From contig CAMMBO010000044.1 in NCBI GenBank assembly GCA_946494435.1, forward strand, positions 1 to 6,761: DNA of 6,761 bases, written 5' to 3'. A program made the position numbers and the translations under genes. Within the stretch, counting starts at the first letter, position 1. Each line of letters begins with the position of its first letter. Below the pieces are notes generated by a model. It saw nothing but the letters and a program-made list of their open reading frames with translations. It was not told the DNA's origin and did no database searches. Source of the stretch: an uncultured Mycoplasmatota bacterium (GTDB lineage Bacteria > Bacillota_I > Bacilli_A > RF39 > UBA660). Below are positions 1 through 3,746 of this stretch, in pieces.

Positions 1-449
1 ACACTAATATTTTCTTTTCTTTTGCCGCCACAAATATAATTTATAGGAATGTGATATGTCATCGCTAATAAAACGAGTTTATTAGTTGGTATCCTAGTTT
101 TACCATCTTCATAATAAGAATAACTAGATTGTCTGATGTTTAAAACTTTTGCAAATTCTCTTTGTGTTTTCTTTAACTTTAGGCGATATCTTTTAAGTTG
201 ATTTCCAATAAATTCTACACTTATATCTTTTTCATAGATGATTTCTCTTTTATCAGAAGTTAAGTTAAGCATATATTCTACGTTAGTATGAAAATATCTT
301 GCTAGTTCTACTAACTTCTCTATTGGAAAATTCACATCACCTAATTCCCACATAGCGTAGGTAGTTCTTTTAACGCCAAGAATTTTAGCAACGTCTATTT
401 GTTTTAAATCATGATCTTCTCTTAAATCTCTAATTTTCCCAAACTGCAT
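1..449 (-). CDS. Tandem double-HTH Xre/Cro-CI family transcriptional regulator (3' end outside window)
   Basis: An open frame of 149 codons runs leftwards from ATG at 449-447 and leaves the window at base 1 without a stop. On the minus strand AAGGTGG lies 5 nt before the ATG. The protein holds two copies of the same DNA-binding fold. Copy 1 (about residues 5-62) has Q17-x3-A21-K22-x-L24 as the first helix and R28-T-T-Y31 as the recognition helix. Copy 2 (about 80-141) repeats this with Q96-x3-A100-K101-x-L103 and R106-Q-S-S-Y110. The copies share spacing and the patterns KL-V/L-LA and NYI/EYM near their ends, which suggests internal duplication. The Cys-Gly-Gly-Lys-Arg region after copy 2 suggests the stop is close to the edge. 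Single-HTH Xre proteins are common beside bacteriocin operons; a two-headed form could contact two half-sites as a monomer. Divergent placement suggests control of the exporter operon, which is inference. Confidence 0.85.
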   Translation of the reverse strand, partial: MQFGKIRDLREDHDLKQIDVAKILGVKRTTYAMWELGDVNFPIEKLVELARYFHTNVEYMLNLTSDKREIIYEKDISVEFIGNQLKRYRLKLKKTQREFAKVLNIRQSSYSYYEDGKTRIPTNKLVLLAMTYHIPINYICGGKRKENIS

Positions 450-570
450 CTTTACCACCTTAACCATATTTTATTACAGTCATTTAAATATTAAGAGATT
501 TGTCAAAATAACTGATAAACAAAAATTTTTGGAGCAAAAAAATAGATATTGTTAATTATTATAATAGGAG
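450..570. promoter_or_regulatory. Divergent intergenic region between the regulator and the bacteriocin operon
   Basis: This 121-bp AT-rich gap must carry the promoters of both divergent genes. On the minus strand a perfect TTGACA occurs at 506-501, but no convincing -10 lies 16-18 nt downstream of it. TAAAAT at 473-468 on the minus strand is a fair -10 without a matching -35. On the plus strand TTGTCA at 500-505 also lacks a -10 at the right distance, and TATAAT at 560-565 touches the Shine-Dalgarno and has no -35. The exporter promoter is therefore not recognisable as a plain sigma-A promoter, which may mean that it needs an activator. Confidence 0.45.
476..515. repeat. Imperfect inverted repeat, possible operator for the double-HTH regulator
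   Basis: ACAGTCATTT at 476-485 is the reverse complement of AAATAACTGA at 506-515 at 8 of 10 positions. The arm centres are 30 bp apart, about three helical turns, and the minus-strand TTGACA touches the right arm. An AT-rich region this short will give some chance dyads, so the operator role is only a suggestion. Confidence 0.25.
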
Positions 571-571: not shown

Positions 572-2664
572 TGTTAATAATAAAAAGATTAAAATTAGTT
601 TCGCAGGAATCAACTTATGACTGTGGGGTTTCCTGCCTGCTCATGGTGGCTAAATATTATAATTGTAATGTTTCAAGAGACTACTTAGAAAGAGTTAGTG
701 AGACTATCTATGATGGGACAACGATGTATGGACTTAGGGAAGTTCTTTTGTCTCTTGGCTTTGATGCTTATGGTAAGAAGGGTAATGTCAGTGATATACC
801 TAAATTATCACTTCCTGTAATTGCCCATATAAAGATAGATGATAAGAAAAATCTCTATCACTATGTAGTAATTACCAATATCACTGATAAGAGAGTTATT
901 ATTAAAGACCCTAGTAATCTTATTAAGTCTCTTTCCATAGATGAGTTTAATAAGATATCGACAGGTAATTATCTTTTTGTTAAGAAAACAGCTAGTATTA
1001 AGAGATTTGTAAAGGTTAAAACTATTAAAAATGAGATACTTAAGTTAATAACTAGTAACAAAAATATTCTTGTTTTAATGATAATCTCTATAATACTTAG
1101 TATTAGTCTTGAACTTTTGAATTTGTTTTCTTTAAAGATAATTATTAATAATGCTTTAACAGTTAAATCTACTTATAATTTGGTAGTTTTACTGTTTATC
1201 TTTCTTTACCTTTTAGTATTAAAGACTTTTTATGCCTATTTTATACAGCTTATTACGATGAAACTTACAAAGAAATTTAGTTATCAGTTAAAACTTAATT
1301 TAACTAAACAGTTATTATCACTTCCTAATTTATACTATCAAACTAAGGAAAGGGGGATTATTATATCTTTGTTTAACGATATTGATACTTTTGCTGATTC
1401 ATTATTAAGTGGGGTATTAACATTTATTAACAGTATTATCATCTTGGCGTTTATCTATTTATTCTTTTTAAGCTTGTCAAGCTCTTTAGCTTTAATTCTT
1501 ATAGTTAGTAGTATTATTTTACTTATATTTATCTATTCTCAGAAGAGATTAAGTATTAGGTTGTTATCTAAATATTATAAAGTTAGAGATAATTATAATA
1601 GTAAGTTACAACAGGTAGTAGTTAATAATGATAAGATTAAAGGTCTACATTTAGAAGAGGTGATGTTTAAGAGGACTAGAAAAGTAACAGATACTTTAGA
1701 AGATGAAAGTTATAGAGTAAGTAGATATAGTGAGGTTATAAGAAATATCTTAAGCTTGTTAGAAGGTGCTATCTACTTGTTAGTTTTAGGAGTAGGAGGA
1801 ATTCTTTTAATAACAACAACTAAAATAAGTTTAGCGACATTTTTACTACTAGAAGGTTTTATCTTTATGGGTTTAAAGAATGTAGAAAACTTAGTTTTAA
1901 TTATATTAAAATATCAGAATGCTAGAAAAATAAAGATGAGATTAGATGATATCTTTAATTATGAGAAGGAATTGCTGTTACCTTTTCCTAATTCTAATTA
2001 CCTTACTAAAAATATGGATATAACTATATCTAATTTATACTTTAAATATAGAGATAATCTTGTACTTAATAATATTAATATGAAGATTAAAGCAGGGGAT
2101 AAAGTATTTATTTATGGAGATTCTGGTAGTGGAAAAAGTACTCTTGTTAAATTATTAGGGAGATTCTTACCACTATCGTTTGGACATATTAAGCTTGGTA
2201 ATATTGACTTGACTCATTATAATCTTGCAGACCTTAGAAATATTGTTACTTATGTTTCTAATAAAGAGATGTTTAGTAATACTAATATTAAAGATAATAT
2301 TTATTTATCTAGAAAGCCTTATTTTAATCAAAATACACTTTTATCTATTACGGGGGTAAAGAAGTTATTTAATGATAAGAACTATAGTCTTGATACTGTT
2401 CTTTTGGAAGGTGGGGAAAATATTAGTATGGGGGAAAGGTCAAGAATAAATCTTGCTCAAGCTTTGTTTAAGCCTAGTTATATTTATATATTAGATGAAT
2501 GTCTTAGTAATGTAGATGTTGCTTTAGAACGAGAGATATTAAAAAACATTATAAATTACTATCAAGATAAGATAATTATTTATATTTCTCATCGTCTTAA
2601 TAATAAAGATTTGTTTAATAGAGTATTTTATTTAGAGAAAGGTAAATGTCATGAAGAATTATAA
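571..2664 (+). CDS. Peptidase-C39 ABC transporter: bacteriocin leader protease and exporter
   Basis: Inner-membrane exporter that should cleave double-glycine leaders and pump out the mature peptides. Numbering is from GTG 571. The N-terminal C39 protease domain (about 5-145) has Gln12, catalytic Cys18 in YDCGVSC, His97 in YHYVV and Asp113 in KDPS. A membrane domain (about 160-445) has hydrophobic spans near 165-190, 203-225, 281-325 and 392-435. The ATPase has Walker A GDSGSGKST (516-524), Walker B YILDE with Glu643, SNVD D-loop and H-loop His674. Two motifs deviate: the Q-loop reads YVSN with Asn564 where Gln is usual, and the signature is ISMGE (618-622) instead of LSGGQ. The length is normal for LagD/ComA-type exporters. 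The next in-frame ATG lies after Cys18, so the start must be GTG 571 or the better-spaced ATA 580, which would begin M-KRLKLVSQ. Function is firm; the start is not. Confidence 0.95.
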   Translation: MLIIKRLKLVSQESTYDCGVSCLLMVAKYYNCNVSRDYLERVSETIYDGTTMYGLREVLLSLGFDAYGKKGNVSDIPKLSLPVIAHIKIDDKKNLYHYVVITNITDKRVIIKDPSNLIKSLSIDEFNKISTGNYLFVKKTASIKRFVKVKTIKNEILKLITSNKNILVLMIISIILSISLELLNLFSLKIIINNALTVKSTYNLVVLLFIFLYLLVLKTFYAYFIQLITMKLTKKFSYQLKLNLTKQLLSLPNLYYQTKERGIIISLFNDIDTFADSLLSGVLTFINSIIILAFIYLFFLSLSSSLALILIVSSIILLIFIYSQKRLSIRLLSKYYKVRDNYNSKLQQVVVNNDKIKGLHLEEVMFKRTRKVTDTLEDESYRVSRYSEVIRNILSLLEGAIYLLVLGVGGILLITTTKISLATFLLLEGFIFMGLKNVENLVLIILKYQNARKIKMRLDDIFNYEKELLLPFPNSNYLTKNMDITISNLYFKYRDNLVLNNINMKIKAGDKVFIYGDSGSGKSTLVKLLGRFLPLSFGHIKLGNIDLTHYNLADLRNIVTYVSNKEMFSNTNIKDNIYLSRKPYFNQNTLLSITGVKKLFNDKNYSLDTVLLEGGENISMGERSRINLAQALFKPSYIYILDECLSNVDVALEREILKNIINYYQDKIIIYISHRLNNKDLFNRVFYLEKGKCHEEL

Positions 2665-3031
2665 GAAGAATGGAATGCTTTTAGTATCTATAACTGTTGT
2701 TTTTCTTTTAACTATAGTGTTCTTTTATCTGTTAGTCTCTATTAAATTATGGACTTATAATTCTGTTAGTATCTTAAATATAGATGATGATGTTATTACT
2801 GTTTTTACTACTTTAGACTTAGAATTATTTGAAGATAATAACTTCTTCTATTATGATACTTTGAAATATAACTATAAAATAAATAGTAAAGATAATTTTG
2901 AAGAGGGGGTTATCTTAACTTTAGAATTAGAAAAGTCTTTTAAATTAGTTAATGATGATATTATAATACTTTTACCTAATAAACGAGTGACAATACTTAG
3001 TTTGATAATAGATAGTTGGAGGGTAAAATGA
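2651..3031 (+). CDS. Small single-pass membrane protein, probable miniature HlyD-like export accessory
   Basis: 126 aa. AAAGG at 2638-2642 lies 8 nt before the ATG. The gene overlaps the exporter by 14 nt and ends in a 4-nt ATGA overlap with the first precursor peptide, so it belongs to the export operon. A basic N-terminus (KNYKK) precedes one hydrophobic helix at about 9-31. The rest (about 35-126) alternates hydrophobic and acidic stretches typical of beta structure and would lie outside. The C-terminal stretch, with VNDDIIILLPNKRVTIL and a final SW, resembles the last part of HlyD/LcnD membrane-fusion proteins. The coiled-coil hairpin and lipoyl-type domains that make those proteins about 400-470 aa long are missing. 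Position and topology support an export adaptor; the homology is judged by eye. A role in immunity is the main alternative. Confidence 0.6.
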   Translation: MKNYKKNGMLLVSITVVFLLTIVFFYLLVSIKLWTYNSVSILNIDDDVITVFTTLDLELFEDNNFFYYDTLKYNYKINSKDNFEEGVILTLELEKSFKLVNDDIIILLPNKRVTILSLIIDSWRVK

Positions 3032-3183
3032 AAGAATTAACAAAAAATGAAATGAAGAATATTAAAGGAGGAGCGACTATTTCTGCTGCTGTTATTGGAA
3101 TTGGGGTATCTATAATTATTTCCTTTGTGGTGGGAGTAATTAGTGGCTTTACTAATCCAGAACCATGTGGAGGAGGTGATTAA
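3028..3183 (+). CDS. Double-glycine leader bacteriocin precursor A (51 aa)
   Basis: GGAGGG at 3018-3023 precedes the ATG by 4 nt, and the ATG overlaps the upstream TGA as ATGA. The leader MKELTKNEMKNIKGG has the hydrophobic residues L4, M9 and I12 at the spacing typical of class II leaders and ends in GG at 14-15, the expected cut site of the neighbouring C39 exporter. The 36-residue core begins ATISAAVIG and is rich in Gly, Ile, Val and Ser. It has a GxxxG motif (G36-VIS-G40) in a hydrophobic helix of about residues 18-40, then a polar tail NPEPCGGGD with a single Cys47. This fits one half of a class IIb two-peptide bacteriocin and recalls the lactobin A/cerein 7B group, by eye only. The final Gly-Gly-Gly-Asp codons also form the Shine-Dalgarno of the next gene. 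At 51 codons it is easily overlooked. Confidence 0.88.
   Translation: MKELTKNEMKNIKGGATISAAVIGIGVSIIISFVVGVISGFTNPEPCGGGD
3171..3179 (+). promoter_or_regulatory. Shine-Dalgarno of precursor B, inside the end of precursor A
   Basis: AGGAGGTGA lies within the last codons of precursor A. The AGGAGG core ends 8 nt before ATG 3185, near the optimum. This fixes the start of precursor B and rejects the upstream GTG at 3143, which has no ribosome site and would remove the double-glycine leader from the N-terminus. Confidence 0.9.
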
Positions 3184-3184
3184 A

Positions 3185-3355
3185 ATGAAAGATTTATCAG
3201 TTAAAGAGTTAAAAAATATTAAAGGAGGCTTTTCTTTAACATCAACTGCTATTAAATATGTAGGAGACTTAATTGAAATATTAATATTAGCAGGTAGAAA
3301 GTTAGGAAGTTCTCTTAGAAGAATAGGGAGTGGTGATATATGTCCCTTAGAGTAA
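3185..3355 (+). CDS. Double-glycine leader bacteriocin precursor B (56 aa)
   Basis: Starts one base after the precursor A stop. The leader MKDLSVKELKNIKGG is 15 residues, the same length as that of precursor A and with the same KNIKGG end. The 41-residue core begins FSLTSTAIKYVGDLIEIL, predicted to be an amphipathic helix, followed by the basic segment GRKLGSSLRRIG and the end GDICPLE. It holds a GxxxG motif (G37-RKL-G41) and a single Cys53. The core is cationic and helical, whereas precursor A is hydrophobic and nearly uncharged, which is a common division in class IIb pairs. The LGRSLG..RR-like segment recalls the lactobin A/cerein 7B group from memory, not from a search. The target is probably the membrane of related bacteria. 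The 3' end overlaps the following 39-aa gene by 16 nt. Confidence 0.88.
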   Translation: MKDLSVKELKNIKGGFSLTSTAIKYVGDLIEILILAGRKLGSSLRRIGSGDICPLE

Positions 3356-3459
3356 AGAGATTTATAAGATTAGTAGGTTTTAGCTTACTTAACGTTATAT
3401 TAGTCCTTACTTTTTATAATTTTGGTCTATTTTTAGGAGAAATGTTACAAAAAATGTAA
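3340..3459 (+). CDS. 39-aa basic single-helix membrane peptide, candidate immunity protein
   Basis: ATG 3340 lies within the end of precursor B in another frame (16-nt overlap) and TAA is at 3457-3459. GGGAG at 3326-3330 is 9 nt upstream, with GGTGAT closer. The product starts MSLRVKRFIRLVGF: four Arg/Lys in the first ten residues, then a hydrophobic helix of about 11-32 and a short tail with EMLQKM. The basic N-terminus before the helix predicts an inside N-terminus. It has no double-glycine leader, so it is not a third precursor of the same type. The last position of a bacteriocin operon is the usual place for immunity genes, and small membrane immunity proteins are known, but 39 aa is short for one. 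It could also be an export helper or a chance ORF, though the overlap and ribosome site argue for translation. Confidence 0.55.
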   Translation: MSLRVKRFIRLVGFSLLNVILVLTFYNFGLFLGEMLQKM

Positions 3460-3542: not shown

Positions 3543-3746
3543 ATGGCACAGGTAACTGTAAAAAACGGTAATCTTGATGGAGCGATTAAAAGATATAAAC
3601 AAAAATTAGCTCGTAGTGGTGTCCCTTCTGAAGCAAAGAAGCATGATGCTTATGATAAACCAGGAGTAAGAAGAAGAAAGGCTAAGAAAGAAGCCATTAA
3701 GAATGCTCGTAAAAATGAACGTAAGAGAAGAAGAGAAAGAGATTAA
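3543..3746 (+). CDS. rpsU: 30S ribosomal protein bS21
   Basis: 67 aa, within the bS21 range. The N-terminal part, MAQVTVKNGNLDGAIKR, followed by KLARSG and the Y-x-KPGVRRRKAKKEA segment, is diagnostic. The C-terminal tail is almost wholly Lys/Arg/Glu, as is usual for this RNA-binding protein of the 30S platform near the 3' end of 16S rRNA. ATG 3543 is chosen because GGGAGGG lies 9 nt upstream; a GTG at 3522 lies before that site and is rejected. It stands first in the conserved block, before yqfC and yqfD as in many Firmicutes, but yqeY, which often follows rpsU, is not here. Confidence 0.97.
   Translation: MAQVTVKNGNLDGAIKRYKQKLARSGVPSEAKKHDAYDKPGVRRRKAKKEAIKNARKNERKRRRERD

Follow-up and report, generated by a model that had tools for sequence, protein, structure and literature searches.

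Across the genomes examined, a pair of different, adjacent peptide genes belongs to a core locus of one order of gut Bacilli (RF39), a locus that is inherited vertically and usually lies beside rpsU, in which it is unlike the usual bacteriocins. The two peptides, here called A and B, carry GG leaders and are encoded with a C39-peptidase ABC exporter (PCAT), an accessory protein (ACC) and, in many loci, a small membrane protein (C). Judging from the sequences, A and B may be secreted as a pair of the class IIb type that acts on membranes, its genes established as a core locus and C being a B-like decoy or immunity protein; belief and doubt in this reading are about evenly balanced. Features of the window, by which we mean the whole 6,761-nucleotide stretch analysed, are collected in Table 1.

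Table 1 The peptide cassette and its flanking genes in the window (TM, transmembrane)
Feature	Position	Strand	Basis and remarks
Double-HTH regulator (two HTH_3 stretches)	3..467	-	Pfam HTH_3; divergent; runs off the window start
PCAT, C39-peptidase ABC exporter, 697 aa	571..2664	+	Pfam Peptidase_C39 (1.4e-30), ABC_tran, ABC_membrane
ACC, 126-aa accessory protein	2651..3031	+	One N-terminal TM helix and a small beta domain
Peptide A precursor, 51 aa	3028..3183	+	ATG at 3028, stop ends at 3183; 15-aa GG leader MKELTKNEMKNIKGG; 36-aa hydrophobic core with GxxxG (G36/G40) and PxxC (Cys47)
Peptide B precursor, 56 aa	3185..3355	+	ATG at 3185, stop ends at 3355; 15-aa GG leader MKDLSVKELKNIKGG; 41-aa helical core, GxxxG-xxx-RR-...-C (G37/G41, Cys53)
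Gene C, 39-aa leaderless one-TM protein with GxxxG	3340..3459	+	19/19 close relatives have C
Ribosomal protein S21 (rpsU)	3543..3746	+	Pfam 5.5e-16; chromosomal neighbour, outside the system

The PCAT/ACC, ACC/A and B/C frames overlap in the window, which suggests one coupled operon, and GGAGG precedes the start codons of both A and B. On the 3' side of rpsU, the window encodes a YabP-family protein (YqfC), YqfD, VanZ, YbeY and a diacylglycerol kinase. The double-HTH protein is a possible regulator of the cassette, and its homologues (58-86% identity) adjoin the cassette in five of 20 loci (L056, L057, L058, L060 and L062). The listed GTG start of PCAT (571) falls inside the AGGAGGTG ribosome-binding site and is followed in frame by TTA-ATA-ATA, so translation may really begin a few codons downstream, perhaps at a non-canonical start.

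A PCAT scan of species genomes yielded 19 close relatives (best-segment identity 64-100%), including Candidatus Onthousia excrementipullorum and O. faecipullorum, and all 19 keep the gene order PCAT, ACC, A, B, C, S21 together with both cysteines. NCBI places Candidatus Onthousia among Bacilli incertae sedis; its order in GTDB we take to be RF39. Further loci were fetched, 20 from the family and 20 from other members of the order, the latter mostly weak matches, and 40/40 of them have a PCAT homologue on the 5' side of A and B. The gene for S21 lies downstream of B in 29 of the 39 loci where this can be tested (18/20 in the family and 11/19 in other order members, one locus of the second 20, L127, ending at B), at up to about 4 kb from B and mostly within a few hundred bases. 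The genes yqfC-yqfD-ybeY often come after S21, and in L121 YqeY is next after it. In one fetched locus (L070:1571-3665, in the orientation with B on the plus strand) PCAT is present as two ORFs, owing to mutation or an assembly error, and A, B and C appear intact.

Rereading the sequence bore out the coordinates, leaders, motifs and cysteines that a preliminary description of this DNA had given for A and B, as well as its account of the A core as hydrophobic (net charge -2). The same description had called B a cationic amphipathic helix; the helix stands and is moderately amphipathic, but its cationic character is weak (net +1 in the window, with a median of +2 over 80 rows). The AlphaFold2 model of B has a helix at residues 17-48 (block means of 82 and 87 over residues 21-40, 73 overall). 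A search for PDB relatives of the A and B cores found none. Among the relatives of B in the database, 40/77 are annotated with an upstream start that makes them 70 aa long; L016, L017 and L019 have the 56-aa frame without this extension.

A lone GxxxG in one sequence is weak evidence, since shuffling the window cores yields the motif in 0.72 of trials for A and 0.39 for B. The evidence becomes strong because the place of the motif is fixed across the order. From 129 loci, 132 B-like frames were extracted and reduced to a non-redundant set of 79 B peptides, 77 of them with A nearby; this set leaves out the C protein of the L053/L071 locus and a repeated A there. GxxxG is present in 79/79 B and 75/77 A peptides (L128 and L129 being without it), and the distance from its first Gly to the Cys is 16 residues in 77/79 B and 11 in 73/77 A peptides. 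A Cys in the C-terminal region is kept in 78/79 B peptides and, by position, in 77/77 A peptides; this residue is the last of B in many of the most divergent members. Among 24 diverse peptides of each kind, the invariant columns include G36, G40, P44 and C47 in A and G37, G41, R45, R46 and C53 in B. The elements that the preliminary description had brought together, namely different adjacent peptides with GG leaders and one GxxxG and one Cys in each, are conserved and found together, beside a C39 exporter, well beyond the window.

That description had also named the loss of a single gene or of the Cys as evidence against its proposal, and such cases are few. A lies within 420 nt of B in 77/79 non-redundant loci; of the two remaining, L051 carries its A some 700 nt upstream and L037 is truncated where its contig stops. 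The only B without the C-terminal Cys (1/79) belongs to the second pair of an A-B-A-B tandem array found in one genome (L130:5551-6124, oriented with B on the plus strand). The first pair of this array has both C-terminal cysteines, and the second has neither, its A also being without PxxC. Each peptide of the second pair has a Cys elsewhere, that of A inside GxxxG. Elsewhere, a third GG-leader peptide without a C-terminal Cys precedes A and B at L128:5639-5773 (same orientation).

The fixed geometry between GxxxG and Cys supports a predicted proximity of the A and B cysteines. What the thiols do is a separate matter, and there is a substantial, if minority, case for a class IIb-type toxin in which the cysteines do not cross-link A to B and instead serve in metal binding, lipid or thiol attachment, or homodimers. 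A lone Cys beside a membrane helix has such alternative possible uses, and DsbB (PF02600), VKOR (PF07884) and Thioredoxin_4 (PF13462) were each without a match (E<=1e-5) in 20/20 order genomes, while the same searches were positive in controls (6/14, 3/14 and 7/14, respectively); a catalysed disulfide is therefore disfavoured. If there is an A-B disulfide, it would have to form without these enzymes; otherwise the thiols would serve another role. Against a role other than an A-B cross-link stand the fact that each mature peptide usually has exactly one Cys (72/77 A and 76/79 B), its fixed spacing from GxxxG in both partners, and the occurrence of a Cys at exactly the same +16 position as in B in eight C proteins. 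That both C-terminal cysteines are missing from the second pair of the tandem array points the same way but is suggestive only, since it is one event and each of those peptides has a Cys elsewhere.

Searches with profiles of the peptides can reveal how widely the pair is distributed, and these were run on draft genomes without stated completeness. A B profile built from eight sequences matched 207/291 genomes of the family at E<=1e-3, and one built from 24 sequences matched 357/385 genomes of the order at the same threshold, mostly once per genome. A search for A in 20 of the 28 order genomes in which the 24-sequence profile found no B (E<=1e-3) gave six matches at E<=0.05, two of them clear: one cut by a contig end (G195), one in G260 and four weak. 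The G260 match (L150:1486-1617, minus strand) is an A-like frame with leader and GxxxG and without PxxC, preceded by 68 nt of contig, and B was not seen in the approximately 0.5 kb after it; this is a possible single-gene case, whether a loss or remnant or an assembly fault. In 296 genomes of the class, the B profile matched 36 at E<=1e-4, comprising 35 order members and one leader-only frame outside the order, and the A profile matched 39 at E<=1e-3, comprising 34 order members and five leader-only matches outside. At the search sensitivity used, the A-B pair is therefore characteristic of the order. The five leader-only A-profile matches are frames of 73-139 aa (G509:C3, G579:C1, G484:C1, G641:C5 and G665:C3) and are possible further exporter substrates.

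Sequence comparison can also indicate how the pair has evolved. Between the two main Onthousia clades, Nei-Gojobori omega is 0.04 for S21, 0.095 for B, 0.12 for A, 0.14 for YqfD (resting on 11/20 sequences), 0.14 for YqfC, 0.19 for PCAT, 0.25 for ACC and 0.30 for C. Against the more distant L016, L017 and L019, the values are 0.09-0.19 for B, 0.12-0.33 for A and 0.16-0.21 for PCAT. A is therefore not always more constrained than PCAT, its omega being 0.33 and 0.24 against L017 and L019, where that of PCAT is 0.16 and 0.19. Distances of mature A+B correlate with those of YqfD at r=0.91 (n=21), close to the figures for PCAT with YqfD (0.88) and for YqfD with YbeY (0.90); in larger sets that include the most divergent members, they correlate at r=0.54 with PCAT (44 loci) and 0.65 with S21 (33 loci). 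Purifying selection acts on A and B, whose divergence follows that of chromosomal genes, and the overall pattern looks like vertical inheritance, not an exchange of weapons.

Bacteriocins usually vary between strains, and near-universality combined with purifying selection is unusual for a weapon. The pair could instead be physiological, acting on its own population as a signal, a kin cue, or an envelope or sporulation-linked factor, with C as a membrane partner or receptor subunit. Its presence throughout nearly all of the order, its vertical descent, a level of purifying selection between the main clades comparable to that of the sporulation genes YqfC and YqfD, and the frequent succession of S21 and yqfC-yqfD-ybeY downstream all argue for such a role. 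We nevertheless consider it the less likely reading: different helical GxxxG peptides with a small TM protein are what class IIb loci look like, no sensor kinase turned up in a scan of ten window proteins, and the double-HTH regulator stands beside only part of the loci. As for the preliminary designation of A and B as a class IIb bacteriocin pair, paired helical GG-leader peptides with GxxxG and Cys beside a C39 exporter are indeed what is found, but the label "simply a bacteriocin" is unsupported because the system occurs in nearly all of the order, mostly as one copy, descends vertically and is subject to purifying selection.

Gene C, which was missing from the preliminary description, resembles B. 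Its ATG sits within the Ile-Cys codons of B. Defined as an ORF of 30-75 aa that begins near the stop of B and encodes a TM segment and GxxxG, C was identified in 42 of the 72 loci with enough sequence and was not found in the other 30; the count of 42 leaves out a leader-bearing A (L130), and that of 72 leaves out the L053/L071 row in which C had passed as B. In profile comparisons, the end of C aligns with the GxxxG-RR region of B (P 4.2e-5, at a probability of only 70); the hhalign score of C against B is 24.6, with a maximum of 12.8 over 100 column shuffles, and the comparison of A with C gave nothing. The C of L053/L071 passes 22 bits with the B profile. An Arg at +8 from the first Gly is present in 28/42 C and 73/79 B proteins. 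The N terminus of C is positively charged (mean +3 in 14 residues), which suggests an N-in, C-out topology. From these features, we read C as a putative leaderless, membrane-anchored, B-like partner for A, either an immunity decoy or a receptor. It cannot be the sole protection because of the 30 loci where it was not found.

Care must be taken with a frame of this kind, as the start of C overlaps the last codons of B in most loci and its omega (0.30-0.57) is the least constrained of the set or nearly so. The overlap could alone hold the Cys codon of B, but loci without C retain this Cys as well. That C is a chance frame over the 3' end of B is nonetheless very improbable: its starts fall at two offsets in 39/42 cases (28 at -16 and 11 at -13), such an ORF arose in 0/1580 mononucleotide shuffles of the downstream stretches, its GxxxGxxxR lies far past the overlap, and its omega is below 1. 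Least credible of all is an ordinary two-peptide bacteriocin, conserved locally, whose order-wide matches share nothing beyond a generic GG leader: the leaders do match (A versus B, leaders alone, P 8.9e-10), A matches the B profile through its leader and the A profile finds leader-only frames outside the order, but most matches within the order cover almost the full 56 positions, E is below 1e-8 for the 357 apart from about 20, the extracted sequences retain GxxxG, RR and Cys, PCAT, A and B occur together in 40/40 fetched loci, and the core alignments contradict it. The weak B matches in the order could be A peptides that match via the shared leader.

The exporter has relatives outside the order. 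In the mycoplasmas, the Mbov_0121/MAG1140 exporter pair (NF045998, NF045999) consists of a related PCAT and a 126-position accessory family, although both window proteins score far under the family cut-offs. ACC reaches 17.4 against NCBIfam NF045999 (MAG1140; cut-off 35), and 6/7 of its relatives match this model at E<=1 (best 5.2e-5); in its AlphaFold2 model, the TM helix and beta domain have a mean pLDDT of 84. In 7/7 loci of mycoplasma-type genomes (L143-L149), a PCAT, called by BLAST in six loci and by Pfam in L148, and a MAG1140-family frame lie upstream of YbeY, near the same place as in the window. Past YbeY in these loci come a cytidine-deaminase gene and then an Era-like gene (GTPase plus KH), both identified by test in L144 and judged similar by eye in the other loci. 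No GG-leader peptide was seen beside this exporter in the 12-kb regions of L143-L149, and the exporter may predate the peptides. The mycoplasma family MPN313, which 9/24 A peptides match weakly (best 4.2e-4), was dropped; its search gave 0 matches in the seven mycoplasma-type genomes and 0 in 14 controls, a result that speaks neither for nor against its presence.

Class IIb is defined by synergy of its two peptides at a 1:1 ratio. Class IIb systems such as lactococcin G, plantaricin EF/JK and carnobacteriocin XY share with the A-B set adjacent GG-leader precursors with different helical cores, GxxxG in both peptides, a C39-peptidase exporter and an adjoining gene for a small TM protein. The A-B set differs in being an order-wide core locus under purifying selection, with a near-invariant Cys per peptide at fixed spacing and a TM protein that resembles B. 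In PMC8538875, nearly all class IIb peptides are stated to have GxxxG and their immunity proteins at least one TM segment; here, the adjacent GG-leader peptides and their motifs are as counted above, and the membrane-associated immunity protein has a candidate in C. CbnZ, described in PMC6957408, is a 42-aa one-TM immunity protein of carnobacteriocin XY whose protection was demonstrated by expression; C is alike in length (39 aa) and in its single TM but is a candidate only, for which CbnZ may serve as a precedent for an immunity protein this small. The comparison with the lactobin A/cerein 7B model (TIGR03949, cut-off 21.5) that the preliminary description proposed gave a divided answer, window A passing at 24.9 and window B failing at 16.4. 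Among relatives, 22/24 A and 10/24 B match it at E<=0.1, and the matches end at residue 40 in A and 35 in B, short of PxxC and RR...C. Against Pfam Bacteriocin_IIc (PF10439), A scores 23.0, under the gathering cut-off of 27.1, and B has no match. None of the literature matches listed, as seen in titles and abstract openings, describes this A-B system; the candidates of IIBacFinder may include these peptides.

If A, B and C do form a class IIb-type system, its action could be pictured as follows. The C39 exporter and the accessory protein, as their domains and gene order suggest, would cut A and B after GG and export both. Outside the cell, the two helices would pair via their GxxxG faces in a fixed register, as the invariant spacing implies, and this register would bring the cysteines of the C-terminal regions close together, possibly as a disulfide. 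By analogy, the pair would then insert in membranes and permeabilise them, while C, a leaderless one-helix anchor with the GxxxGxxxR face of B, would bind A in the producer membrane and thereby protect the cell. A further proposal, tentative and of rather low confidence, is that A and B are an ancient, near-obligatory two-helix secreted complex in the core biology of the whole order (a self-directed signal, the envelope or kin) rather than a variable weapon, assembled through GxxxG and the Cys pair, with C as a membrane-anchored receptor or decoy.

Class II bacteriocins are usually regarded as sporadic, fast-changing weapons of strains, whereas the A-B set is present in nearly every genome of the order examined, and its evolution in the genus looked at in detail resembles that of housekeeping genes. 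This raises testable questions about the purpose of a near-universal two-peptide system and about self-protection or self-sensing by a membrane-anchored copy of one partner. As an exported product, the A-B pair also offers a way to study bacteria that are known mainly from metagenomes.
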